Below are positions 1,075 to 19,187 of a DNA stretch of 20,012 nucleotides, piece after piece. A program made the translations under genes and the position numbers. The notes under the pieces were generated by a model. That model searched no databases. It saw only the letters and a program-made list of their open reading frames with translations, and had not been told where the DNA came from. Each line of letters opens with the position of its first letter. The first letter of the stretch is position 1. The DNA comes from an uncultured bacterium (GTDB lineage: Bacteria; CAIJMQ01): positions 1-20,012 of the forward strand of contig CAIJMQ010000062.1 of assembly GCA_903821905.1 (NCBI GenBank). Reading direction: 5' to 3'.

Positions 1075-1137
1075 ACGAAGTGATAAGCAGGCCTTTATAA
1101 TCGTTAATTTTCTTTCTTGATTAATGGAAAAACAAAA

Positions 1138-2859
1138 ATGAAAATCGCGGTTCATATTACTCACGAGTCGATGAAAAAAATCGGCGGTATCGGAGCGGTT
1201 TTGAATGGTGTCTGTACTACGGATGCATATAAATCCGTCTTCGGGAAAACCGTCCTTTATGGGCCTTTGTTCGGAAGTAGCGAAGAGCTTAATGAGACGA
1301 TAGAAGTCCTTTTTTCCAGTGTTGATGGCTATGATAAAGATAATTATAAAAGGCTTTTTAGTGAAATTCAGCGGAAATACGGGATAGATATTGTCTATGG
1401 CAGAAGAGTATTAGCAGATGAATTTGAAGAGACCAAGAAGAATGATGTGGATGTATTTTTAATTGGCACTTCTTCAATGAACAAGGTTGAAGTGAACAAC
1501 TTCAAGTTCAGGTTGTGGGAGAAGTTCGGTATTCAATCTGACTTGTATGAAAATGACTGGGACTATGAACAGTATTTGAGGATTGCCATACCTTTTCTTG
1601 AGATACTGAATAAAGTATACAAAGAGGATTTAGAGTACTATTGTTTTTCTCATGAATATATGGGAGTACCTTCTGCGTTGTCTGCTGTTTTACAGGGCAA
1701 ACATAAAACTATATTTGTAGCCCATGAGGTTTCTACGGCAAGGTCTTTAGTAGAAAACTCACCGGGACATGATTTGAGTTTTTACAATATCTTATATTCT
1801 GAGCATGGAAAAAGGTCTTTAGAAGAAGTTTTCGGAAGCCAGAAACAGAACCCGCGCAATGAACTCATAAAACTGGCAGTGAATTTTGACAGAATATTTG
1901 CTGTTAGTGACCTGACCAAGGAAGAATATCTTTTCTTGGTGCCTGATACTCCTCGTAGGAAAATAAAGGCGGTTTACAATGGGTTGTCAGTGCAAAACAT
2001 ATCGGTGAACCGGAAAAAACAAAGCCGTGAGCTGATAGATATATATATCCAGAAACTTCTTGGTTTCAAACCTGATGTTATATTCACTCATGTAACAAGA
2101 TTGGTTATGAGTAAAGGGTTGTGGCGGGATATTGCTCTTCTTCATCATCTGGATGAAATTTTTCAATCAAAAAAATTTAAAGGAGCTTATATTTTGCTTT
2201 CTTCATTTGTAGCCACAGGGAGACCTTCTGAAGATATTATGCGGATGGAGAAAGAATATGGCTGGCCTGTCAATCATAGACGGAGCTGGCCTGACCTTAT
2301 GGGAAAAGAGGCGAAAATATATGACTACCTTGAAACTTTCAATAAAAAATCAGAAGCTATAAAAGGGGTGTTTATAAATCAATTCGGATTTAATAGGGAA
2401 AAATGCGGGTTGAAAGTACCTGAAGATGCTCAGTTTATAGATTTAAGGATAGCTTCCGATGCAGAATTGGGATTCTCGATATATGAGCCGTTTGGTATTG
2501 CTCAGCTTGAAACGATTCCATTCGGGGGAGTTTCGTTGTTGTCTTCTTCCTGCGGTTCAGCATCTCTATTAGATAAAGTTTTCAAGGATGCAAAGATAAA
2601 GCCATACTATGTGGTGGATTTTATATGCAAAGGTAACCATATGAAATGTGAAGAGCTAATAAAGAACAGCTTGACGATAGAAAAAAGGACTGCGATTGAG
2701 GGGGAACTATTTAAAGAACACGCAAATGCTATTTTCAAGGTTCTTCCTGTTACCGATAAAAAGAGAATGGAATATCTCAAGAACGCATTCCATTATAATT
2801 CCAAACTTTGCTGGGAAAATATCGTAAAAAAATTCTTTTTGCCTAATCTGCCCATTTAA
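1138..2859 (+). CDS. Glycogen-synthase-like glycosyltransferase (GT-B fold, GT3/GT5-like)
   Basis: 573 aa from the ATG at 1138; a TTG at 1117 in the same frame is less likely because the family start (KIAVHITHE) follows directly after 1138. The N-terminal domain has the KIGGIGAVL loop (about 14-22) that binds the nucleotide-sugar phosphates in glycogen and starch synthases. The C-terminal domain has the E-x7-E pair of retaining GT-B enzymes at Glu450 and Glu458 (EPFGIAQLE), followed by a Gly/Ser-rich loop. It probably elongates alpha-1,4-glucan from ADP- or UDP-glucose. Large inserts around residues 85-150 and 310-380 make it longer than GlgA (about 480 aa) and closer in size to GT3 enzymes. 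It follows the channel gene by 63 bp, with a weak TATAAT at 1096-1101. Its end overlaps the oppositely oriented phosphorylase gene by 17 bp. Donor sugar is not decidable. Confidence 0.8.
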   Translation: MKIAVHITHESMKKIGGIGAVLNGVCTTDAYKSVFGKTVLYGPLFGSSEELNETIEVLFSSVDGYDKDNYKRLFSEIQRKYGIDIVYGRRVLADEFEETKKNDVDVFLIGTSSMNKVEVNNFKFRLWEKFGIQSDLYENDWDYEQYLRIAIPFLEILNKVYKEDLEYYCFSHEYMGVPSALSAVLQGKHKTIFVAHEVSTARSLVENSPGHDLSFYNILYSEHGKRSLEEVFGSQKQNPRNELIKLAVNFDRIFAVSDLTKEEYLFLVPDTPRRKIKAVYNGLSVQNISVNRKKQSRELIDIYIQKLLGFKPDVIFTHVTRLVMSKGLWRDIALLHHLDEIFQSKKFKGAYILLSSFVATGRPSEDIMRMEKEYGWPVNHRRSWPDLMGKEAKIYDYLETFNKKSEAIKGVFINQFGFNREKCGLKVPEDAQFIDLRIASDAELGFSIYEPFGIAQLETIPFGGVSLLSSSCGSASLLDKVFKDAKIKPYYVVDFICKGNHMKCEELIKNSLTIEKRTAIEGELFKEHANAIFKVLPVTDKKRMEYLKNAFHYNSKLCWENIVKKFFLPNLPI

Positions 2860-5389
2860 TCAATTCCGGATGTAAACTCTCCACAATACTGTTTGCCGGT
2901 TTTATACGTACGTTTATGTTCTGTTGTCCGTATCCTTCTATTTTCAATGAACACGTATATTGACCTTGACCTTCACGTATTGTTTTGAACTTCATCGGTA
3001 TTATCCTGAAATTTTTATCTTCATTATAGAGATAAAAAACTTCCACCTTGAAGAGCTGATTAGGTATTTCTCCTAACTGAATTTGACATGTTGCTTCTAC
3101 TTCTTTGCCTTCAGTCAGATGTTCTTCTTTTTCGGTGTTTGTAGAAAACGAAGTAAACCTTACATTGCCCCAATGCTGTAATACCTGCTTCTCTTCATTC
3201 ATAGCTTCTTTTAAGATTTTATAGTTATTATCAGCAATCCTGTCGGATTCTTTAACTAAATTTATATAAAATTTATTTACATACTCATCAACGGCTCTGT
3301 TCATGTTGAATTTCCACAAGACAGATTTTATGGATTCTTTCATAATCATTATCCATTTTCCAGGAATATCGGCTTCATTTCGGTCATAATAAGATTTTAT
3401 TATTTCTTCTTCAAGTAAATCGTATATCTGATTTGCCTCGGCGGATTCTTGTAAATCGGAATCTTTATAGAATTCGCCGGCTGTAATAGACCAGCCATTT
3501 TTGCCGTTATAACCTTCTTTCCACCACCCTTCAAGTACGCTGAAATTAATTACTCCGTTCATTGCGGCTTTCATTCCAGAAGTTCCGCTTGCTTCCATTT
3601 CTTCCTGTGGTGTATTTAACCATACATCTGCTCCCCATACTAAATGGCGCGCAATATCAATATCATAATTTTCCAAAAACAGTACTCTGTCTTCCACTTC
3701 ATATTCTTTAGCAAAGTCCATGATTTCTTTTATCATTTCCTTGCCGTTTTCATCCGCAGGATGAGCTTTTCCCGAAAATATCAGCTGGACGGGTTTATCA
3801 GGGTTTGTAAGTATTTTAGCAAGTCTTTTTTTATCTTTTAGTATCAGAGTTGGCCTTTTATAGTGAGCAAACCTTCTTGCAAAGACAATAGTAAGATAAT
3901 TGGGATTTAGAAGACTTGCCAACTTTGAACTCTTTTTTTCCGAATATCCTCTGGCTTCAAAAGAATCGGAAACTCTCTTTCTTGCAAAAGGCACAAGAAT
4001 CTTCTTATTTTTACGGTGTGCATCCCATATTTCTTCGTCGGGTATATCTAGAATTTTCTTTTGCATAACTTCTTCTTCGCCGAATTCGAAAATGTTATGG
4101 CCTAAATACCGTTTTAAAAGATCACTAAAGGATTCGCTGACCCAAGATGCGTGAACACCGTTTGTAACGTAGTCTATGGGAATCTCTACCTTTTGTCTTT
4201 CGGGGAATAGATTCTCCCACATTTTTTGGGAAACATCTCTGTGTTGTAAAGATACAGCAGTTACGGTATTTGAAAATCTTATAGCGAGTGCAGGCAGCCA
4301 GAAAACATCGCTTTTATTATCTGCAAAGCCGAATTGTACTAGTTCTTCAAAAGAAATTCCCATAACTCTTGTCTCTGGTTCCAGGTATTTTCTTACCAAG
4401 TCCACTTTAAAATTTTCATTTCCTTCTATTACCGGTGTGTGTGTTGTAAATATAGTGGACGCTCTTATAATTGCCCGCGCTTCTGTAAGAGAAAATTTCT
4501 TATCTTGCATTAATTTCTGCAATCTTTTGAATATGAGAAATGCAGAATGGCCTTCATTTAAATGATAGATTTTCGGGTTTATACCCATAGCTTCTAATGC
4601 ATATATTCCGCCTATTCCCAGAATCAGTTCTTGCTGTATTCTTTTTTCCCTATCTGCAACATAGAGTTCATCAGTGATATCTCTAAGATGGGGTGGATTG
4701 TCCTGTATATCGGTATCAAGTAGTATAGTTCTAGCTCCTCCAACATCAACCTGCCACACTTTAACCTTTACATTTTCTTCGAGAAGTTTTACGTCAACAT
4801 AGACGGGCTGTCCCTGTTGGTTTTTTGCTTCTTTAAGCGGAATAAAATGATTTTCAAATTCGATAAATACTTCTTCTTGTTTGCCGTCAGGATTTAGCCT
4901 TTGTGTGAAATATCCATATTTATAAAGTAGCCCGATTCCAACAATGGGTATTCCCATATCAGAAGCACTCTTGATAAAATCTCCGGATAGGATACCTAAG
5001 CCGCCTGCGTATATTGGTATGGATTCGTGAATACCAAATTCCATAAAAAAATAAGCTATGGCGTCTTTACTGCCGAAATCATATTTTTTGCTGTTTTCTT
5101 TTTTCAATGTTTCCACTTTTTTCAGATATTCTTCAAACCGCTGATATACTTTATCTAATTCAAACAGAAACCCCTTGTCTTTTGAAAGTTTCTGTATCTT
5201 CTCTTTGGGGACAAGATATAACAGTCTGATTGGATTGTGACTTACTTCTCTGAACAAAGATGCATCTATTCTGTAAAAGAGATTGACAGCATCATAATTC
5301 CAAGTCCACCAGAGATTATGAGCGAGTTTGAAGAGTTTCCCTAAATTTTCTGGATATTTGGGCTCAACAAAGATTTTTTTTAAAATCAT
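2843..5389 (-). CDS. glgP: Alpha-glucan (glycogen/maltodextrin) phosphorylase, GT35
   Basis: 848 aa cytoplasmic enzyme releasing glucose-1-phosphate from alpha-1,4-glucan ends with phosphate. The N-terminus (LGKLFKLAHNLWWTWNYDA) is the domain found in the divergent bacterial/archaeal phosphorylases. The pyridoxal-phosphate site is EASGTSGMKAAMNG, with the Schiff-base lysine at about residue 607. Preceding motifs include FARRFAHYKRP and NTPQEEMEASG. The last roughly 130 residues form an extra beta-rich C-terminal part usual in this subgroup. Its ATG overlaps the upstream stop in an ATGA (5386-5389), and a strong Shine-Dalgarno (GGAGG on the minus strand, 5397-5401) lies inside the upstream gene, so translation is probably coupled and efficient. 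It is the last gene of the leftward glycogen operon and ends inside the convergent synthase gene. Confidence 0.93.
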   Translation of the reverse strand: MILKKIFVEPKYPENLGKLFKLAHNLWWTWNYDAVNLFYRIDASLFREVSHNPIRLLYLVPKEKIQKLSKDKGFLFELDKVYQRFEEYLKKVETLKKENSKKYDFGSKDAIAYFFMEFGIHESIPIYAGGLGILSGDFIKSASDMGIPIVGIGLLYKYGYFTQRLNPDGKQEEVFIEFENHFIPLKEAKNQQGQPVYVDVKLLEENVKVKVWQVDVGGARTILLDTDIQDNPPHLRDITDELYVADREKRIQQELILGIGGIYALEAMGINPKIYHLNEGHSAFLIFKRLQKLMQDKKFSLTEARAIIRASTIFTTHTPVIEGNENFKVDLVRKYLEPETRVMGISFEELVQFGFADNKSDVFWLPALAIRFSNTVTAVSLQHRDVSQKMWENLFPERQKVEIPIDYVTNGVHASWVSESFSDLLKRYLGHNIFEFGEEEVMQKKILDIPDEEIWDAHRKNKKILVPFARKRVSDSFEARGYSEKKSSKLASLLNPNYLTIVFARRFAHYKRPTLILKDKKRLAKILTNPDKPVQLIFSGKAHPADENGKEMIKEIMDFAKEYEVEDRVLFLENYDIDIARHLVWGADVWLNTPQEEMEASGTSGMKAAMNGVINFSVLEGWWKEGYNGKNGWSITAGEFYKDSDLQESAEANQIYDLLEEEIIKSYYDRNEADIPGKWIMIMKESIKSVLWKFNMNRAVDEYVNKFYINLVKESDRIADNNYKILKEAMNEEKQVLQHWGNVRFTSFSTNTEKEEHLTEGKEVEATCQIQLGEIPNQLFKVEVFYLYNEDKNFRIIPMKFKTIREGQGQYTCSLKIEGYGQQNINVRIKPANSIVESLHPELIKWAD

Positions 5390-6591
5390 ATTCCTTCCTC
5401 CAATCTTTTCTCCAAGTCTGCCAAAGCATGCATAAAATACATATATGCATCTTCAGGGGCAGAATAAGGAGAAAAATATTTATGAACATCACCGTCCTGA
5501 AAGTATTTTGTACACATATAGTAATACAAATCTGATGTGGAAAGTTTCCTTGCTGTATCAAGAAGGTCTTTTCTACCGCTTGCTTTTATATTACTCAAAA
5601 TTTTATAGAATGTTTTCGACGCATTCCATTGCAAAGAATTAGATAACCATGCTGAAAGGTCTCTCTCTGTGTCAGCCCAAGAGATAGGTTCCTTTACCGA
5701 TAAAGCTTCAGGTTCATAGTTTATACTGTCTTCAACTTCAGAAGGCCAGATAAAGGAAGCGAAGTTGTGTTTTAAAACATGTTTTGGTAGATTTTTAACG
5801 AATTCAAATATGCCGGTGTCGGACCACTGGTGTTCCCCAAAAGTTTCATAATCCATAAATAGATTCAGATAAAGTTTTTTCCCTGTTTTTTCTATCAAAG
5901 GTAATTTCTCTATCCAATCAATAAATTTCTCAACTTTCAGCGGATATTCTACCCATCCTTTGTCGGAAAATCGGAAAGCTATGTCGTCGGAAAGACGGTA
6001 ATACTTAAGAAGTAATAGATGTCTCTTGGTATAACTTTTATATGCATATAGAGGAGACCTCCACTTTAAAATTTTGTCGGCTCCTTCTGTAAGTATCATT
6101 TTAAATTGGGGCAACTCAGATATAATATCAGAAATCTTGTCACTATATATAAGTTCTGTATTGCGGAAAGTTCTTGGTTTAAGACCAAACTCCGTTTCTA
6201 TGAGTTTAGAATGTAACTGGACTTGTTCCAGGAATTCGTTTTCATCAAATAGGGAAGCCAGAGAATGATAATAAGTCTCACCTAAGAATTCTGTCCCTCC
6301 GCTTTTAGCAAGAGCTCTAAAAGTATCAAGAACATCAGGCCGATATTGCCTGAGTTGTTCGATTAATGTCCCTGTTATGCTGAATGAAACCTTGAAAGCT
6401 CCTTCGTATTTTTCAATTAATTCAAGCAGGAGATTGTTAGTGGGAAGATAGCATTTATCAGATACTTTATTTATTATATTCCTGTTTAACTCTTCATCAA
6501 AATAGTTGCCGGACTTACCTATTTCTGTAAGTCTGTACTGCCGTAATCTATATGGTTGGTGTACTTGAAAATAGAAAACTATATGTAGCAT
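5386..6591 (-). CDS. GH57 family alpha-amylase / 4-alpha-glucanotransferase-like enzyme
   Basis: 401 aa retaining glycoside hydrolase of family 57, acting on alpha-1,4-glucans. Conserved GH57 regions are visible: HQPYR (11-15), GETYYHSL (104-111), TFRNTELIYSD (141-151) whose Glu146 is the expected nucleophile, and FMDYETFGEH (245-254) whose Asp247 is the expected acid/base. The FRNTELIY form is that of the short MJ1611-type GH57 proteins found in glycogen clusters of archaea and uncultured bacteria, usually annotated alpha-amylase. The protein is about 400 aa, near the short end for the family. It has no signal peptide, so it works inside the cell. It starts 3 bp after the upstream glycosyltransferase stop with no recognisable Shine-Dalgarno, suggesting coupled translation. 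Whether it hydrolyses, transfers or branches cannot be decided. Confidence 0.87.
   Translation of the reverse strand: MLHIVFYFQVHQPYRLRQYRLTEIGKSGNYFDEELNRNIINKVSDKCYLPTNNLLLELIEKYEGAFKVSFSITGTLIEQLRQYRPDVLDTFRALAKSGGTEFLGETYYHSLASLFDENEFLEQVQLHSKLIETEFGLKPRTFRNTELIYSDKISDIISELPQFKMILTEGADKILKWRSPLYAYKSYTKRHLLLLKYYRLSDDIAFRFSDKGWVEYPLKVEKFIDWIEKLPLIEKTGKKLYLNLFMDYETFGEHQWSDTGIFEFVKNLPKHVLKHNFASFIWPSEVEDSINYEPEALSVKEPISWADTERDLSAWLSNSLQWNASKTFYKILSNIKASGRKDLLDTARKLSTSDLYYYMCTKYFQDGDVHKYFSPYSAPEDAYMYFMHALADLEKRLEEGI
5397..5401 (-). promoter_or_regulatory. Shine-Dalgarno of the phosphorylase gene
   Basis: On the minus strand GGAGG lies 7 bases before the ATG at 5389 and is followed by a second purine run AAGG. 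It sits within the last codons of the GH57 gene and supports re-initiation at the ATGA junction. Confidence 0.75.
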
Positions 6592-6594
6592 TTT

Positions 6595-7878
6595 TTAAGT
6601 GTTTGTATAAATATCAAGAATTTTTTGAGCTGCTTCTTTCCATCGTATTTTTGCCACTTCTTCTATGCTTTTCTCGGACATTTCCTTCAATCTCTTAGGG
6701 TTCTTAACGAGGTCAAGAATTATAGAAACGATTTTATCTATATCCCAGAAATCAACTTTATATGCACTTTCTATTATCTCGGCAACACCGGATTGTTTGG
6801 ATATGATTGCTACAGCTCCATAACTCATTGCTTCTAAAGGTGCAATTCCAAAAGGTTCGGAAACAGACGGCATAATAAATATATCTGCAGCGGAAAGAAT
6901 TGATTCCAGGTCTTGTCTTGTTAGAAAACCTGCAAAGAGGAATTTTGTCCCCAGTCCCATGGAAGCAGCTTGATGGATTATCTCTTTTTCCATGTCACCC
7001 TTGCCTCCCATTATGAACCTTACCTTTTTTTCTTTCCGCAATACTTTTTTTGCTACATCCAGAAAGTAATCTGGCCCTTTCTGTAGAGTTATTCTTCCGA
7101 TAAAGACAACCGTTGGTTCTTTGAATATTCTCTGTTTGGGTTTTCCTGTCGTTTCTACAAAAAAAGCATTATGGACGACTTTAATCTTATTTTGGTCAGC
7201 CAAATATTTTTCAATAATTATATTTGAAGTGTAACTTGAAACAGTAATTAACTTATCGGCAAGTTGCACCCCCATATATTCCAGATTATGTATTCTGCTG
7301 TCTCCGGCACCGCCTGCGCGGTCAAATTCAGTAGAGTGTATATGAGCTATCCAGGGTTTCCCGGATAGTCCTTTTATCAATAAAGCTGCAGGGGAAGTTA
7401 ACCAATCGTGGGCATGTATAACGTCAAAATCCAGATGTTTGGCGATGTTAACTGCTTTAGCTGTATAGTTTCTAACTTCCGGGAAGAATGGCCCGTCCTT
7501 AGAAAGAATATCAAATAGGAAATCTAAAGATGTAATGCCTTTTATTCCTTTAAGTATTTCATCTTCCCATATACTCTTAAATGTTTTTTCACCTGTCGTA
7601 AAATAAGCCATATCCAGATACTTTGCTCCTTCTATTAGGTGTTGTATCTTTACTCTTTTACCGAATTTTTTTCCCCTGGAAGGGTCAATAAAAGCAATAG
7701 GCATAGAATCTGCATCTTCTGGTTTTCTAAGCGGGAAATATACTTCCTCATTAGTGGGTATTATGAGGTCTATTTCTATGCCTGCTGAAAGTAATGCTTT
7801 TGCCATTCCGTAGCAAGCCATTCCCAACCCGCCGGTCAAAACAGGTGGGAATTCCCAAGTCAGCATTAAGATCCTCAT
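6595..7878 (-). CDS. GT4 glycosyltransferase, probable glycogen synthase
   Basis: 427 aa GT-B glycosyltransferase. The N-terminus has the EFPPVLTGGLGMACYGMAKAL segment (about 9-29), with the GGLG loop typical of glucan synthases and GT4 relatives. VIHAHDWLTSPA (middle) is the glycogen-synthase-like HDW motif. The C-terminal half has GRITLQKGPD and the E-x7-E pair at Glu341 and Glu349 (EPFGIAPLE). Context strongly favours an alpha-glucan synthase using NDP-glucose: it lies between debranching enzyme and GH57 in one operon. Its ATG overlaps the debranching-enzyme stop in an ATGA (7875-7878). It is a second, unrelated-looking synthase beside the 1138-2859 gene, so the two may differ in donor, primer or conditions. 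A sucrose- or trehalose-synthase-like activity is possible but less likely. Confidence 0.85.
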   Translation of the reverse strand: MRILMLTWEFPPVLTGGLGMACYGMAKALLSAGIEIDLIIPTNEEVYFPLRKPEDADSMPIAFIDPSRGKKFGKRVKIQHLIEGAKYLDMAYFTTGEKTFKSIWEDEILKGIKGITSLDFLFDILSKDGPFFPEVRNYTAKAVNIAKHLDFDVIHAHDWLTSPAALLIKGLSGKPWIAHIHSTEFDRAGGAGDSRIHNLEYMGVQLADKLITVSSYTSNIIIEKYLADQNKIKVVHNAFFVETTGKPKQRIFKEPTVVFIGRITLQKGPDYFLDVAKKVLRKEKKVRFIMGGKGDMEKEIIHQAASMGLGTKFLFAGFLTRQDLESILSAADIFIMPSVSEPFGIAPLEAMSYGAVAIISKQSGVAEIIESAYKVDFWDIDKIVSIILDLVKNPKRLKEMSEKSIEEVAKIRWKEAAQKILDIYTNT

Positions 7879-9905
7879 TGCTGTTCTTCTTCTCCCAGAT
7901 TCTTTAACATTTTTTCAATTAAGAAAATTGCGGCAACAGACCAACATTGAGCAGGTGCACCTTTAGGGATATTTGGGTCTTCCCCGTCATATATTTCCGG
8001 TACAGAAGACATCTTGCCTTGCATAAACCCGTTTCTAAATATAAAAACCAATTCTTCCAATTCAATGATAAGTTTGTCTTTATTTGTTGAATAGATTTTT
8101 GCCGCTACTTTTGCCATTGATAAAAGCAGCCATACCCATACTGTCCCCTCATGATATGCAAGGTCTCGCATTCTTTGATTACCCATGTATTTTTTTCTAA
8201 ATAGATTGCTTTCAGGAGCTATAGTTCTTAATCCATAAGGAGTAAGCAGTTTCTTTTTGGCAATTTCGTAGCCTATGCTCATTTTTTCCTTGGAAGTTAT
8301 ATCAAAAGGAAGCGAAAAGGCAATTAAGTAGTTTGGTCTGAGCTCCATTTTAGGTTTTCCATTTTCAATCCGGTCGGCGAAACTATTATCTATGAAGAAA
8401 GCATTCATAGATTTCTTTACTTTTTTTACAAGAGTTTCTAATTCTGACAAAGAAATCTTGTTCCCATCAAACTTTATTTCTTTGATATTTTCTTCTTTGG
8501 CAAAGTTAGTAAAAGACAGAAGCAGGTTATACCAGAGTGCGTTTATCTCAACGGGTTTTCCATATCTAGGAGTTACAGGTTCTCCGTGCACTTTTGCATC
8601 CATCCATGTCAATGCAAACCCTGTGTCAGGATGGATAGTAATCAGTCCGTCGTGTCTATCAATATGAGAAGGTAGGGATGCGTTGAATAGGTAGTTTGCC
8701 AAAATTTGATAAACAGTATCAAGCATGTTCTTCTTTGTTTGTGAATCAAATTCATTCCAAAATTCTATTACCCTTATTCCAAACCATAAGGATGCATCTA
8801 TAGTGTCGTAGTTTTCTCCTGCGTTTCCTTCACCGAAAGTATTCGGAATAATTCCGTCCTTCATATTGTTGCTGTATTTCTTTAGTATCTTGCAGGCGAG
8901 TTCATTCCCGCCTTCAATAAATTTAAGTGCCTCAAGCGAAATCATTGTGTCTCTTCCCCATGCGGAGAACCACGGAAATCCTGCGATGAGATCGTCCCCG
9001 ACTACGAATTCTTTCATGGCAATTTCCAGGATTTTTAGATATTCTTTGAATGCAAACATTCTCTTGCCTTCTTTAGAAATATTCAGGAGAATTTTTTCGG
9101 GTTCATTCTTGAATACGAACGGATGCCGTATAGGTAGGGGATGGTTTTTATATTTAGCTGTAGTTTCAATAATCAATCGTTCAAAGTTTTCCTGTGGACT
9201 ATCTGCAAAGAGGAGAATTTCTTCTTCTCCTGCTTGCAACATGCAGGTTACTTTAAAAGGAGATATTAAATCTTCAATTCCTTCATAACCACGAATCATT
9301 TCGGTAGGATAAAGAACATTCCTATATATAAGTGGTTCAGATTCAATATTATCTTTAAGACTGTACATATATGCTTCTATTCCTCTACTGGCAAATTTTG
9401 CGGTTTTTTCTGATAGCTCACACCTATATTCTCCTTTATCCCAAAGATTCGGCCCATTTACTACATGATGATTTCTAAAGGTGAATTTTGGTCTTAATAC
9501 AAGCTTGAAAGGTATTTCACCCAAATTGATGTATTTAACCAAGACCACATTTTTAGTAGGGTGGAGTTGAATTATTTTCATGATTAGTAACTGATTGGAT
9601 GGCGGATTGGTAGAATATAGAAAAGACGGATAAGGACGAAGAAAATATTCAACCATATGTTTATATCCTTGAGGATATACGGTATTATGATAGTTGTTGG
9701 CATCCAGGAAGAAACTTGTTCCATCTTCTAGGTGTATATTTTCTTCTATGGAAGAGACCAAATGTGTTCTTTTTAAGCTTGAATCTGAAGCAATTAGAAG
9801 GCCATGATATTTACGGTGGTTTAAAAGATTAGCAGAACCTAAGGCATATCCGCCTTGGGAATTTGTTAGTATCCATTCATACGGAGAGAATTCGAAGTTT
9901 TCCAT
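7875..9905 (-). CDS. Glycogen debranching enzyme (amylo-alpha-1,6-glucosidase, GH133 type)
   Basis: 676 aa, usual size for the archaeal/bacterial-type debranching enzyme. The N-terminal beta-domain opens with EWILTNSQGGYALGSA and RKYHGLL (residues 11-36), both hallmarks of the family. The C-terminal (alpha/alpha)6 barrel carries GFPWFSAWGRDT (Asp near 319), YDTIDASLWF, TWMDAKV and YHEGTVWVWLL. It removes alpha-1,6 branch stubs so that phosphorylase and GH57 enzymes can go on degrading. It is the first gene of the leftward operon 9905-2843. The start ATG at 9903-9905 has no clear Shine-Dalgarno. A TATAAT on the minus strand at 9948-9953 gives a short leader of about 35 bases. Confidence 0.93.
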   Translation of the reverse strand: MENFEFSPYEWILTNSQGGYALGSANLLNHRKYHGLLIASDSSLKRTHLVSSIEENIHLEDGTSFFLDANNYHNTVYPQGYKHMVEYFLRPYPSFLYSTNPPSNQLLIMKIIQLHPTKNVVLVKYINLGEIPFKLVLRPKFTFRNHHVVNGPNLWDKGEYRCELSEKTAKFASRGIEAYMYSLKDNIESEPLIYRNVLYPTEMIRGYEGIEDLISPFKVTCMLQAGEEEILLFADSPQENFERLIIETTAKYKNHPLPIRHPFVFKNEPEKILLNISKEGKRMFAFKEYLKILEIAMKEFVVGDDLIAGFPWFSAWGRDTMISLEALKFIEGGNELACKILKKYSNNMKDGIIPNTFGEGNAGENYDTIDASLWFGIRVIEFWNEFDSQTKKNMLDTVYQILANYLFNASLPSHIDRHDGLITIHPDTGFALTWMDAKVHGEPVTPRYGKPVEINALWYNLLLSFTNFAKEENIKEIKFDGNKISLSELETLVKKVKKSMNAFFIDNSFADRIENGKPKMELRPNYLIAFSLPFDITSKEKMSIGYEIAKKKLLTPYGLRTIAPESNLFRKKYMGNQRMRDLAYHEGTVWVWLLLSMAKVAAKIYSTNKDKLIIELEELVFIFRNGFMQGKMSSVPEIYDGEDPNIPKGAPAQCWSVAAIFLIEKMLKNLGEEEQQ

Positions 9906-10237: not shown

Positions 10238-11035
10238 ATGCAAAATCCGCTAATCAGGTTGTTCAGAGGTAAGGTCAGCGAAAAAGAAAGAAGAACCCGT
10301 ATTTTGGATAAGATAACGCATGGAGAGATAAAAGATATTACAGCACGTCCTGCTATTATTATACACATCAAAGCAGAAGGCGAGTCCCCCGTTTATAATC
10401 TCCCAATTCATAGAGAATTTTTTATAGGGAGAGATCCTAAATTTTTTGTGGGTAAAGATTCAAGGAATCAATTATATTTAGAAGGAGAAGGTGTTTCGGA
10501 TGTTCATGCTAAAATAAGACCTGAAAAAGATAGCTATGTACTTTATGATTTGGCATCAAAAAGCGGCACATATGTGAATTGGGAGAAAAAGTTAAAGCAT
10601 AAATTGGAACATAGGGACAGAATAAGAATAGGGCCCCACATTTTAATGTTTGAATTCATAGAAGAAGGAAAAGGAAGTTTCGATGGAATAGAAAGAAGGA
10701 AAGCTGTCCGGATTAAACCTCTGATAACCATAAAGTTTTTAATGATGTCCCATGATAAACTCAAGGAATACCATGGTATAGTAAAAGATATCAGTATTGA
10801 CGGCGCTAGAATAGAAATTGAGCAAGAAATGCCCGAGGGAAATATCATAGAAGCAGGAATCTCTTCTTCAGAATTGGCATTTGTTGAGTTTATAGCACAG
10901 GTCATTTGGAAAAAGATAAAGAGAGAAGATACCAAAATATTATATGAAATGGGAATCCAATTCTTGAAGATGGACGAAAAAGAGAGGGAAATCCTAAAGA
11001 ATTATCTTTTTAATTCTGCGGGAACTGTCAGTTAG
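10238..11035 (+). CDS. FHA-PilZ domain protein
   Basis: 265 aa from the ATG at 10238, chosen because AAGAAAGG (10225-10232) lies 5 bases upstream; an in-frame GTG at 10202 lies inside the tRNA relic. The FHA domain (about 45-135) binds phosphothreonine and shows IGRD (63-66), VSDVHAKI with His90, and SKSGTYVN. The PilZ domain (about 150-260) has the c-di-GMP-binding RxxxR (Arg154 and Arg158) and DxSxxG (184-189, DISIDG), so nucleotide binding is expected. No signal peptide or membrane segment is seen, so it is a cytosolic adaptor joining Ser/Thr phosphorylation to c-di-GMP signalling. The output partner is unknown. It stands alone between the divergent promoter and the tRNA genes. Confidence 0.88.
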   Translation: MQNPLIRLFRGKVSEKERRTRILDKITHGEIKDITARPAIIIHIKAEGESPVYNLPIHREFFIGRDPKFFVGKDSRNQLYLEGEGVSDVHAKIRPEKDSYVLYDLASKSGTYVNWEKKLKHKLEHRDRIRIGPHILMFEFIEEGKGSFDGIERRKAVRIKPLITIKFLMMSHDKLKEYHGIVKDISIDGARIEIEQEMPEGNIIEAGISSSELAFVEFIAQVIWKKIKREDTKILYEMGIQFLKMDEKEREILKNYLFNSAGTVS

Positions 11036-11120: not shown

Positions 11121-11193
11121 GGGGCAATAACTCAGCTGGTAGAGTAACGGCCTTTTAAGCCGTGAGTCGGGAGTTCGAATCTCCCTTGCCCTA
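11121..11193 (+). tRNA. tRNA-Lys (anticodon UUU)
   Basis: 73 nt cloverleaf. The acceptor stem GGGGCAA/TTGCCCT closes with a G1-U72 wobble and discriminator A73. The D stem is ACTC/GAGT, the anticodon stem ACGGC/GCCGT with loop CTTTTAA (TTT at 34-36), and the T stem GGGAG/CTCCC with a standard TTCGAAT loop. CCA is not encoded. It is one base away from the following tRNA and surely co-transcribed with it. Confidence 0.97.
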
Positions 11194-11194
11194 C

Positions 11195-11267
11195 GTCCCC
11201 ATCGTCTAGAGGCCTAGGACACCGGGTTTTCAACCCGGTAACAGGGGTCCGAATCCCCTTGGGGACA
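11195..11267 (+). tRNA. tRNA-Glu (anticodon UUC)
   Basis: 73 nt cloverleaf: acceptor GTCCCCA/TGGGGAC with A73; D stem GTCT/GGAC; anticodon stem CCGGG/CCCGG with loop TTTTCAA (TTC at 34-36); T stem AGGGG/CCCCT. The overall sequence resembles bacterial tRNA-Glu. The T loop reads TCCGAAT, so the near-universal U55 (pseudouridine) is C. All stems are intact, so it is probably functional. CCA is not encoded. Confidence 0.95.
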
Positions 11268-13193: not shown

Positions 13194-13928
13194 ATGACAA
13201 AACAAGCAATATTTAATTTCGAGAAAAAAGAAAATCCTACTCAGAAAGTTAAGTTTACAAGTGACAAGATAAACAAAAAGAATAGACTTGTTCTTTCCCC
13301 GAGCACTTTGAATATTTTCAGGGATTGTCCACGTTGTTTCTGGTTGCAGATAAATGAAGATATAAAAAGGCCCAGAGGGGCATTTCCCTCGATTGCATCA
13401 GGGTTAGATAGAGTTATAAAAGAATACTTTGATACCTATAGAGAAAAAGGAGACTTACCGCCTTTGCTTAAAGATAAAATCGAAGGTAAGTTAATACCGC
13501 AACTACCAAAGAAATTATATTTTAATGACAATTCTACAAATGCTTCTTTAATGGGTATGCTCGATGAATGTCTAATATTATCTGAAAACAGATATGCTCC
13601 TTTGGATTACAAAACCAGAGGTTCTTTGCCTACCGATACCCATCCAGCATACAAGTTACAGATGGACATGTATACATTGCTGCTTGAAAAAAATGATTAT
13701 AAAACGAATAACTTAGCTTACCTTCTCTATTTTGTTCCTCGTTCAGGGAAACTTCATGAAGGTATTCCCTTTGAAGTAAAAATGATAGAAATAAAAACTT
13801 CTCCCGAAAGAGCCCTTGATTTTTTTCACGAAGCAATAGATTTATTAAAGAAACCAATACCTGATTCTTCACAGAATTGTGAATATTGTAACTGGATTAA
13901 TCAGTTAAATGGAAAAGAGAAAGATTAA
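13194..13928 (+). CDS. PD-(D/E)XK superfamily nuclease with two Cys pairs (Cas4/AddB-nuclease-like)
   Basis: 244 aa. The nuclease core shows GMLDE (Asp124), PLDYKT (Asp138 and Lys140 of the D-x-K motif) and LQMDMY (Gln156, Tyr160), the arrangement of RecB/Cas4-type exonucleases. Cys pairs lie at both ends: CPRC (45-48), within a conserved N-terminal LSPSTLNIFRDCPRCF segment, and CEYC (229-232). Four such cysteines bracket the catalytic core in Cas4 and AddB where they hold a [4Fe-4S] cluster; the spacing here (CxxC plus CxxC) would also suit zinc. No cas genes, repeats or helicase partner are present, so a CRISPR role is unsupported. It probably acts in DNA repair or end processing. No clear Shine-Dalgarno precedes the ATG; it follows the HD-GYP gene by 35 bp. 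Confidence 0.75.
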   Translation: MTKQAIFNFEKKENPTQKVKFTSDKINKKNRLVLSPSTLNIFRDCPRCFWLQINEDIKRPRGAFPSIASGLDRVIKEYFDTYREKGDLPPLLKDKIEGKLIPQLPKKLYFNDNSTNASLMGMLDECLILSENRYAPLDYKTRGSLPTDTHPAYKLQMDMYTLLLEKNDYKTNNLAYLLYFVPRSGKLHEGIPFEVKMIEIKTSPERALDFFHEAIDLLKKPIPDSSQNCEYCNWINQLNGKEKD

Positions 13929-16794: not shown

Positions 16795-16817
16795 AAAATA
16801 ACTAGCATAATTCTAAA

Positions 16818-17531
16818 ATGACACCGGAATTAATACTTCTCACCATTACTGCGATTTCAATAGGATTCTTTCATACATTGTTTGGACCTGACCATTATTT
16901 GCCGTTTATCGTGATGGCTCAAGCGAGAAAATGGTCTTTACCCAAGACAACATTAGTAACCTTTTTGTGCGGACTGGGACATGTTGGAAGCTCTGTTTTG
17001 TTAGGTATGGTTGGTGTTGCTTTTGGTATTGCTGTAAGAAGATTGGAGTTTGTGGAATCATTCCGCGGTAATGTTGCAGCTTTGATGTTTATTGCATTTG
17101 GTTTAGTGTATTTTGTTTGGGGGTTAAGACGTGCTTTCAGGAATCAACCCCATACACATGCACACTTTCATCAAGGCGGTCATCCTCACGTTCATAAACA
17201 TGAGCATAGCAATGAACATGTACATCTTCATGAAAAAGAAAAAGCTGTTAACATTACACCCTGGATTATCTTTACAATTTTTGTTTTTGGTCCCTGCGAA
17301 CCGTTAATACCCATACTCATGTATCCTGCAGCAAAGAATAGTATCTTTGGTATGGTGTTGGTAGCAAGTGTTTTCAGCATAGTTACTATTTCTACTATGC
17401 TGGGAATTGTTCTCGTTTCTACTTTCGGGATAAATTTTCTACCGATGCAACGATTAGAAAGATATAATCACGCATTGGCTGGTGCTGCGATACTCCTTTG
17501 CGGATTAGCAATTCAGTTCCTAGGTTTATAA
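16818..17531 (+). CDS. NicO/TauE-like metal transporter with His-rich loop, probable nickel
   Basis: 237 aa membrane protein with about six helices. The first helix carries HTLFGPDHYLPF (His19, Asp25, His26), the H-x(5)-DH signature of the NicO/RcnA/UreH-type nickel-cobalt permease group. GLGHVGSS (His55) in the second helix is the second conserved region. The cytosol- or periplasm-facing central loop (112-138) has 12 histidines in 27 residues, a typical nickel, cobalt or zinc buffer. FVFGPCEPLIPIL in the second half matches the sulfite-exporter-like superfamily repeat. It directly precedes larE (26 bp), and the Lar pathway inserts nickel into its cofactor, so nickel is the likely substrate. 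Import or export direction is not decidable from sequence. No Shine-Dalgarno is apparent. Confidence 0.82.
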   Translation: MTPELILLTITAISIGFFHTLFGPDHYLPFIVMAQARKWSLPKTTLVTFLCGLGHVGSSVLLGMVGVAFGIAVRRLEFVESFRGNVAALMFIAFGLVYFVWGLRRAFRNQPHTHAHFHQGGHPHVHKHEHSNEHVHLHEKEKAVNITPWIIFTIFVFGPCEPLIPILMYPAAKNSIFGMVLVASVFSIVTISTMLGIVLVSTFGINFLPMQRLERYNHALAGAAILLCGLAIQFLGL

Positions 17532-17557
17532 TCATTGCCTTTTTCCCCAAAATTTAT

Positions 17558-18403
17558 ATGGATAGTCTAAAGAAAAAATCAGATAATTTGAAGCATATCT
17601 TAAAAAAATTCGGAAGTGTTATTGTTGCTTTTTCAGGTGGCGTTGACAGCACTTTTTTGCTTAAAAGTGCAATAGATGTTTTAGGCGACAATGTAATCGC
17701 TGTAACTGCTGATTCGGAAACTTATCCTTCTTCGGAACTGAAGGGCGCAAAGAAGCTCGCCCGCAAATTGGGCGTAGAGCATATAATAATCACTACCGAA
17801 GAATTATCCAATCCCGGATTTGTGAAAAATCCCATCAATAGATGTTATCTCTGTAAAAAAGAGTTATTCTATAAATTTAAAAAGTTCGCCGAAGAAAGAG
17901 GAATATCCCATATCGTTGAAGCATCTAACTACGATGACTTGAAAGATTTCCGCCCGGGAAGAAAAGCTATTAAGGAACTTGGCATAAAAAGCCCTTTGCT
18001 GGATGTAAAACTTACAAAGGAAGAAATCAGACAACTTTCCCGAAAAGCAGGTCTTCCCACCTGGAATAAATCGTCTTATGCCTGTCTTGCTTCAAGAATA
18101 CCTTATGGCGTGAAAATTACTCCCGCTAAACTAAAGCGGATTGAAAAAGCCGAGGAATTCTTGAAAAGTTTAAAACTGCATCAGGTTAGGATAAGGGACT
18201 ATGGCGATATGGCTCGCATTGAAGTATCAAAAAACGATATACCCTTAATCTTAAAAGATAAAGTGAGAACAAAAGTTATTGAGAAGTTAACCAAATTAGG
18301 ATACCATTACATCACACTTGATTTGGAAGGATATAGAACGGGAAGCATGAATCCCCTAGAAATTCGAAGAATTTCAGGGACTAAGTCCTCGGAATCTTTC
18401 TAA
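17558..18403 (+). CDS. larE: LarE, pyridinium-3,5-biscarboxylate mononucleotide sulfurtransferase (iron-sulfur type)
   Basis: 281 aa from ATG 17558. The frame is open to 17498, but that part overlaps the transporter gene, and with this start the key cysteine falls at 176, the same number as in Lactiplantibacillus plantarum LarE. The PP-loop SGGVDS (26-31) adenylates the substrate carboxylates, then sulfur is added to make the bis-thiocarboxylate precursor of the nickel-pincer nucleotide. Cys96 and Cys99 (CYLC) join Cys176 (YACLASR). In known family members a lone Cys176 is sacrificed per turnover, while the three-cysteine type holds a [4Fe-4S] cluster that can carry extra sulfide and is catalytic. 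GYRTGSMNP (about 263-271) is where the family usually ends; the last residues (about 272-281) are an extra tail. Next gene larB follows by 31 bp. Confidence 0.93.
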   Translation: MDSLKKKSDNLKHILKKFGSVIVAFSGGVDSTFLLKSAIDVLGDNVIAVTADSETYPSSELKGAKKLARKLGVEHIIITTEELSNPGFVKNPINRCYLCKKELFYKFKKFAEERGISHIVEASNYDDLKDFRPGRKAIKELGIKSPLLDVKLTKEEIRQLSRKAGLPTWNKSSYACLASRIPYGVKITPAKLKRIEKAEEFLKSLKLHQVRIRDYGDMARIEVSKNDIPLILKDKVRTKVIEKLTKLGYHYITLDLEGYRTGSMNPLEIRRISGTKSSESF

Positions 18404-18414
18404 GATTCCAGAGG
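18387..18414 (+). other. Stem-loop across the larE stop codon
   Basis: CCTC-GGAATCTT (18387-18398) pairs with AAGATTCC-A-GAGG (18402-18414) around the loop TCT, giving 12 pairs with one bulged A. The TAA stop (18401-18403) lies at the loop. A shorter palindrome, GGACT-A-AGTCC (18378-18388), precedes it. No U-tract follows, so it is not an intrinsic terminator. The GAGG of the 3' arm is part of the purine run ahead of larB, so it could modulate larB translation or stabilise the upstream mRNA. Confidence 0.5.
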
Positions 18415-18434
18415 GAAGGTAATAAATCAAAAAC

Positions 18435-19187
18435 ATGGATAGGATAGAACTCAAAAAAACACTGGAGCAGGTGAGAATCGGAAAGCTAAGTGTTGAAAAG
18501 GCAATCGGTAAATTAAAACATTTTCCCTACAAAGACCTTGGCTTTGCAAAGATTGATACGCATCGCTCTCTAAGGCGGGGTTTCCACGAAACTATTTTCT
18601 GTGAAGGCAAGACAATTGAGCAGATAAAGAAGATAGTTGCAAAGACCAAGAAATCCGAGATTATGGCGGCAAGAGCAAGCCCTCAAGTTTTCAAAGCAAT
18701 AAAGAAGATTATCCCCGAAGCAGTATATTTTGAAAAAGCAAGAATAGTAGCTGTCCCGCCTCGCCCGCCGAAGCTTCAGCGAAGGCGGGCACAAAAGACC
18801 ATTCTCATCATTACCGCAGGCACTGCCGATATTCCTGTAGCCGAAGAAGCCGCAGTTACGGCAGAACTTATGGGTAACAAAGTTGACCGTCTCTACGATG
18901 TTGGAGTTGCGGGAATTCATCGTCTATTAGACCATCACGAAGAATTATCCAAAGCAAGTGTCCTTATTGTTGTTGCCGGCATGGAAGGCGCTCTCCCCAG
19001 TGTAGTAGGGGGGCTCGTTGATAAACCCGTGATTGCAGTTCCGACAAGTATAGGTTATGGAGCAAGTTTTGAGGGATTAGCCGCTCTCCTTTCAATGCTC
19101 AACAGCTGTGCCCCGGGAATAACCGTTGTTAACATTGATAATGGTTTTGGAGCTGGATACTTCGCTAGTTTAATAAATAAAAAATGA
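18435..19187 (+). CDS. larB: LarB, pyridinium-3,5-biscarboxylate mononucleotide synthase
   Basis: 250 aa. LarB carboxylates and hydrolyses nicotinate adenine dinucleotide, the first step to the nickel-pincer nucleotide used by lactate racemase and related epimerases/racemases (LarA family). The N-terminal helical part has FAKIDTHRSLRRGFHETIF; the C-terminal PurE-like domain has TAGTADIPVAEEA (from about 126), RLYDVGVAGIHR, VAGMEGALPSVVGGL and PTSIGYGASFEGL. Between the domains, residues 108-120 (PPRPPKLQRRRAQ) are not family-like and come from a GC-rich palindromic DNA insert. The active-site motifs are intact, so the protein should work. Its stop overlaps the next ATG (ATGA, 19184-19187). 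LarC, the nickel-inserting enzyme, is not in the window. Confidence 0.94.
   Translation: MDRIELKKTLEQVRIGKLSVEKAIGKLKHFPYKDLGFAKIDTHRSLRRGFHETIFCEGKTIEQIKKIVAKTKKSEIMAARASPQVFKAIKKIIPEAVYFEKARIVAVPPRPPKLQRRRAQKTILIITAGTADIPVAEEAAVTAELMGNKVDRLYDVGVAGIHRLLDHHEELSKASVLIVVAGMEGALPSVVGGLVDKPVIAVPTSIGYGASFEGLAALLSMLNSCAPGITVVNIDNGFGAGYFASLINKK
18755..18790 (+). repeat. GC-rich palindromic insert within larB
   Basis: GCCCGCC (18763-18769) and GGCGGGC (18784-18790) are perfect inverted arms around a 14-base core that contains GAAGCTTC and can also pair CTTC with GAAG. A direct echo, CCCGCC, lies just outside at 18755-18760. The element is far more GC-rich than the surrounding gene and keeps the reading frame. 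Confidence 0.75.

Follow-up and report, generated by a model that had tools for sequence, protein, structure and literature searches.

A NicO-like transporter beside nickel-pincer nucleotide genes in Ratteibacteria: a candidate general nickel importer

LarB and LarE make a dithiolated precursor into which LarC inserts nickel, and in Lactobacillus plantarum the lar locus carries an ECF nickel transporter alongside these genes. The stretch of DNA analysed here (the window)—the whole 20,012-base contig C62 of a draft genome from the Ratteibacteria (G000; 1.30 Mb, 84% complete)—has a single-protein, NicO-like transporter gene directly before larE and larB. Does this protein feed the cofactor alone, supply the cell with nickel more generally, or protect it from the metal? 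The best explanation overall, to which we assign a probability of about 0.65, is that a UreH/NicO-like importer provides general nickel supply beside one of its users and is controlled by NikR in relatives. The parts are known and the arrangement is new: a probable nickel importer, from a family linked to NikR, stands next to pincer-cofactor genes, where it offers a single-protein counterpart to the ECF nickel systems.

The locus and its transporter

The original prediction described a membrane protein with an HxxxxxDH signature and a loop of 12 histidines, encoded 26 bp before larE and followed by larB; coordinates and profile matches agree with this description (Table 1), the larE ATG at 17558 leaving a NicO–larE gap of 26 bp. 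The LarE of the window carries cysteines C96, C99 and C176 (numbering of the matched stretch), a CxxC...C pattern assigned to the [4Fe-4S] type (PMC9283937). A search for larC in the same genome, which had been proposed as a check, found it at the start of contig C1 (531–1739; PF01969, 1.3e-151), and LarB, LarE and LarC are all encoded in G000. Directly before larC, at C1:2–568, lies the tail of the family-specific ORF cut by the end of the window; with one ORF interrupted by the two contig ends, C62 and C1 seem to be neighbours. A Pfam search with this ORF returned no match.

Table 1. Features of the transporter–lar locus in the window, and promoter-like blocks at two further loci.
Feature	Position	Strand	Evidence
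Multi-helix membrane protein, 332 residues	15796..16794	+	Family-conserved; place in unit doubtful
Possible left-half remnant of NikR-type box	16799..16817	+	Comparison with relatives’ box; suggestive
NicO-like (UreH-type) membrane transporter, 237 aa	16818..17531	+	PF13386 match, HxxxxxDH, His loop, family context
Sigma-70-like site TTAGCA-N16-TATAAT directly 5′ of larE	17505..17532	+	Equally frequent in shuffles
larE, sulfur transferase of nickel-pincer nucleotide synthesis, CxxC-C type	17558..18403	+	TIGR00268, 3e-100
larB, carboxylase/hydrolase of nickel-pincer nucleotide synthesis	18435..19187	+	NF033503, 3e-89
Family-specific ORF, cut by contig end	19184..20012	+	Homologue between larB and larC in G002, G003
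Promoter-like blocks	L042:10171-10199, 10679-10707	-	TTGAC-N17-TACAAT
Promoter-like block	L041:9166-9194	+	TTGAC-N17-TACAAT

The transporter motif reads H19-TLFGP-D25-H26 and the histidine loop spans residues 112–138, with exactly 12 histidines within residues 107–146. Residues H19, D25, H26, H55, H112, H114, C160 and E161 do not vary among 47 homologues drawn from many phyla, so chance does not explain the motif. PF13386, the Pfam family covering UreH, was the only Pfam or NCBIfam model to score above its cutoff (29.4 bits against 24.9); no NicO or NiCoT model from either collection did so. An AlphaFold2 model (mean pLDDT 87) is all helical outside the histidine loop and has at least six membrane helices, with HTLFGPDH in the first of these (helix 3–22 to 28–37). 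Sequence searches identified no solved relatives and a Foldseek search with the model gave no clear solved match (best E 0.39), so the fold provides no functional evidence. The best VIA-align score (Z 7.3) was to ZIP zinc transporters, a fold match that we rejected because helical proteins with no relationship score as high.

UreH-type secondary nickel transporters are small single proteins encoded beside nickel-enzyme genes and are nickel-specific by neighbourhood prediction (PMC2667541). The protein studied here resembles them in being a small single-protein transporter with nickel-related neighbours, although those neighbours are pincer-cofactor genes rather than the urease, hydrogenase and SodN genes listed in that paper, and the likeness is one of description.

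Nickel, NikR and the direction of transport

Neighbourhood counts covered genes within three of the transporter at 76 loci of its family. The commonest neighbour was nikR (16/76 loci; identity confirmed by Pfam), with hypB and hypA next (several loci each), so that, with lar, the family has both nickel-enzyme and nickel-regulator genes beside it, as expected of UreH/NicO-like proteins. NikR-type boxes (half-sites GTGTTAC/GTAACAC, spacing 13–14 bp) precede nikR at nine of the 14 loci tested, with 0–2 mismatches, and were almost never seen in shuffles. The same NikR signal, in reversed half-sites too, has been described for delta-proteobacteria, where box and regulator accompany nikMNQO (PMC545781); that is an ECF-type system, in contrast to the single NicO-like protein with lar neighbours in some lineages that we describe here. 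A loosely named transporter family is in this way tied to nickel via NikR in many phyla.

NikR is a repressor of uptake genes when nickel is plentiful, which makes import the likelier direction. The original prediction allowed for either nickel supply or nickel detoxification: the nikR and Hyp neighbours and the NikR-type boxes favour supply, and detoxification is unlikely under NikR-type control. This comparative evidence makes nickel import by the 237-residue protein very likely. That it is instead an RcnA-like exporter, protecting the cell from nickel or cobalt, seems highly improbable to us: it shares with RcnA an HxnDH motif, a histidine-rich loop and a weak similarity (PRK10019, 5.9e-05), but the score of 22.4 bits is far below the model cutoff of 195 and the regulator linked to the transporter family is of the uptake type, its boxes fitting nickel-repressed uptake genes.

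In two relatives from the family of the window species (G002 and G003), an identical 28-bp box, GTAGCACGAATTTAAAATTTGTGTTATA, precedes NicO amid spacers that have diverged, and nikR occupies different positions in the two genomes. The box is present as a single copy in the 1.47 Mb of G002, only before NicO. A nikR gene in the genome together with an upstream NikR-type box is found in both relatives and in several phyla. No nikR gene was found in the genome of the window species (84% complete) and the window contains no NikR-type box above chance; directly ahead of its NicO, the bases TAGCATAATTCTAAAATG look like the left half of such a box, as might remain had a deletion taken away its right half together with the spacer, although the likeness is no more than suggestive.

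These relatives also bear on the membrane protein encoded before NicO, which the original prediction had tentatively included in the same unit. Its ORF ends 24 bp before NicO and shows 54% identity to homologues in two relatives, with no match in Pfam or NCBIfam profile searches. Its membership is doubtful because it is separated from NicO by nikR in G003 and by a 161-bp gap that holds a NikR-type box in G002, and because conserved gene order extends to unrelated genes, ilvC among them.

A TTGAC-N17-TACAAT site precedes larE in G002 and G003 (in G003 also the ORF before larE) and a stable hairpin lies 3′ of NicO in G002 (z −3.2); in these relatives, larE may thus be transcribed from a separate promoter. 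Several genes of G002 and G003 are preceded by the same block, with a spacer ending in AAAACAA; as start codons fall within about 10 bases of it, the leaders would be very short. A riboswitch scan of the window was negative, the only RNA matches being two tandem tRNA genes (11121–11267, + strand) directly before queC.

Recurrence of the transporter–lar pairing

The order NicO, larE, larB, family-specific ORF, larC is found on one strand in G002 and G003, with an extra ORF of 174 residues between NicO and larE in G003. A block running from queC to larC, ilvC included, is conserved in all three family members (G000, G002 and G003) and, since the whole block is syntenic, lar–NicO adjacency in these three Ratteibacteria counts as one event. 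Two members of the same class (G004 and G005) have larE-larB-larC without NicO. Another genome, G001, from the genus of G002 and 96% complete, lacks NicO, larE, larB, larC and [NiFe] hydrogenase; in the four genomes compared, the nickel genes are retained or lost as a set. At C29:9414–9515 (L200), G001 has a nikR fragment, a 44-residue ORF that may be a pseudogene or lie at an assembly edge.

Comparison of neighbourhoods beyond this family, proposed as a check on the pairing, gave a divided answer: the pairing is seen again and again, in two gene orders and across at least three lineages, and most relatives of the transporter adjoin unrelated genes. The order nikR-NicO-larE-larB-larC occurs in two Paludibacter genomes among 80 transporter loci sampled across many phyla. 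A survey of 386 genomes found the transporter in 26, LarB in 199 and both in 17; the genes are adjacent in four of these 17, comprising the three Ratteibacteria and G276, which has the order larB-larC-larE-NicO. By a rough estimate (assuming a few kb, the same strand, 3 Mb genomes and about 15 lineages), chance would yield such adjacency in about 0.02 lineages, against the two seen; Paludibacter, from the other sample, is a third.

Ratteibacteria and Paludibacter proteins stand apart in trees, and AU tests did not reject a single origin of their cassettes (LarE, p 0.065; NicO, p 0.26); independent assembly is therefore suggested by the gene order of G276 and not proven by the trees. The coupling of NicO and lar is real, and is a minority habit of the transporter family. 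In the literature searched, we found no paper that mentions NikR together with lar genes, and none that places a NicO-like transporter within a lar locus.

It might still be argued that the transporter supplies hydrogenase only and came to lie beside larE through chance of gene order: ilvC and other unrelated genes lie in the syntenic block, candidate promoters stand before larE itself and most relatives have no lar linkage. We regard this as unlikely, given that the pairing recurs in Paludibacter and G276 and that lar, NicO and hydrogenase are jointly absent from G001.

Two further observations concern individual loci in the samples. The larC of one Paludibacter locus is split into two adjacent ORFs (L153:12517–13805) and is a single ORF in the other (L133), the split reflecting either a frameshift or a sequencing error; L. 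plantarum larC carries a known frameshift. The transporter loci L083, L085 and L087, in which NicO has an FmdE-like gene and hypB for neighbours, are nearly identical and come from bins named Armatimonadota and Cloacimonadota, pointing to recent transfer or binning error.

Nickel clients and the user of the cofactor

G000 encodes the large subunit of a [NiFe] hydrogenase, complete with both CxxC pairs (RICGICSTGH and DPCISCSCH), which lies with a maturation protease and HypF about 14–22 kb beyond larC; G002 encodes HypA and HypB. Crude pattern scans of G002 detected no other importer of the NiCoT, CbiM or Nik-ABC types.

The original prediction had also proposed a search for LarA-family genes in the genome that holds larC. 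The genome does hold larC. For LarA, two domain models gave no homologue in G000, G002 or G003 (genomes 81–92% complete), and none was seen among the ORFs of G002 or in G276. At this completeness, absence of LarA is likely but not certain, and missing parts of the assemblies or a very divergent LarA are possible causes of the result. In the Paludibacter genomes, LarA matches were only weak and fell in ORFs about 430 residues long, and LarB occurs without LarA in 24 of 80 sampled LarB genomes. Like the L. plantarum lar locus, the loci described here join nickel transport genes to pincer-cofactor genes; they differ in transporter type, in the CxxC-C type of LarE and in the lack of a recognisable LarA.

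The genome has a nickel hydrogenase but lacks any recognisable cofactor user, so the importer probably does not serve the cofactor alone, and the dedicated nickel route put forward in the original prediction is not supported. Such a route would have the transporter feed LarC through co-expression or direct hand-over, leaving other nickel enzymes to another importer. In its favour are the short gaps between the genes of the window, the recurrence of the pairing (three lineages, two orders) and a NikR-type box that in G002 occurs only before NicO. We nevertheless think it improbable: the hydrogenase is a second nickel client in the same genome, pattern scans of G002 showed no second importer, larE in relatives has a candidate promoter to itself, the transporter family sits mostly elsewhere than beside lar genes and LarA was not found in the three Ratteibacteria.

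General supply accommodates these observations better. Under this reading, a secondary UreH/NicO-like transporter would bring Ni2+ into the cell, with the HxxxxxDH, H55 and GPCEP residues probably lining the path and the histidine loop gathering metal. In relatives, NikR would control the importer via the box directly upstream, so that it is made at nickel scarcity; in the window species, with neither nikR nor a box at the locus, NicO is probably read through from the preceding gene. LarB and LarE would supply the dithiolated precursor for nickel insertion by LarC, whose gene follows shortly after the contig end, and the importer would serve the [NiFe] hydrogenase of the same genome as well.

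Lack of LarA here and in the sampled LarB genomes makes the question of other cofactor users a concrete one. It is conceivable, although we consider it rather doubtful, that where the importer, LarE, LarB and LarC are encoded without LarA, as in G276 and the three Ratteibacteria, the nickel-pincer nucleotide serves an enzyme that does not belong to the LarA family. These hosts offer small genomes in which to seek such users.

Elsewhere in the window, a Cas4-like (PD-(D/E)XK) protein is encoded at 13194–13928 (+ strand; Cas4 match 26.9 bits against a cutoff of 65), its place conserved in the family; the window holds no cas genes. Four large genes at 2843–9905 (− strand) resemble, by eye, a glycogen/alpha-glucan cluster (phosphorylase-like, GH57-like, glycosyltransferase and debranching-like), and a further glycosyltransferase-like gene, also recognised by eye, lies at 1117–2859 (+ strand).
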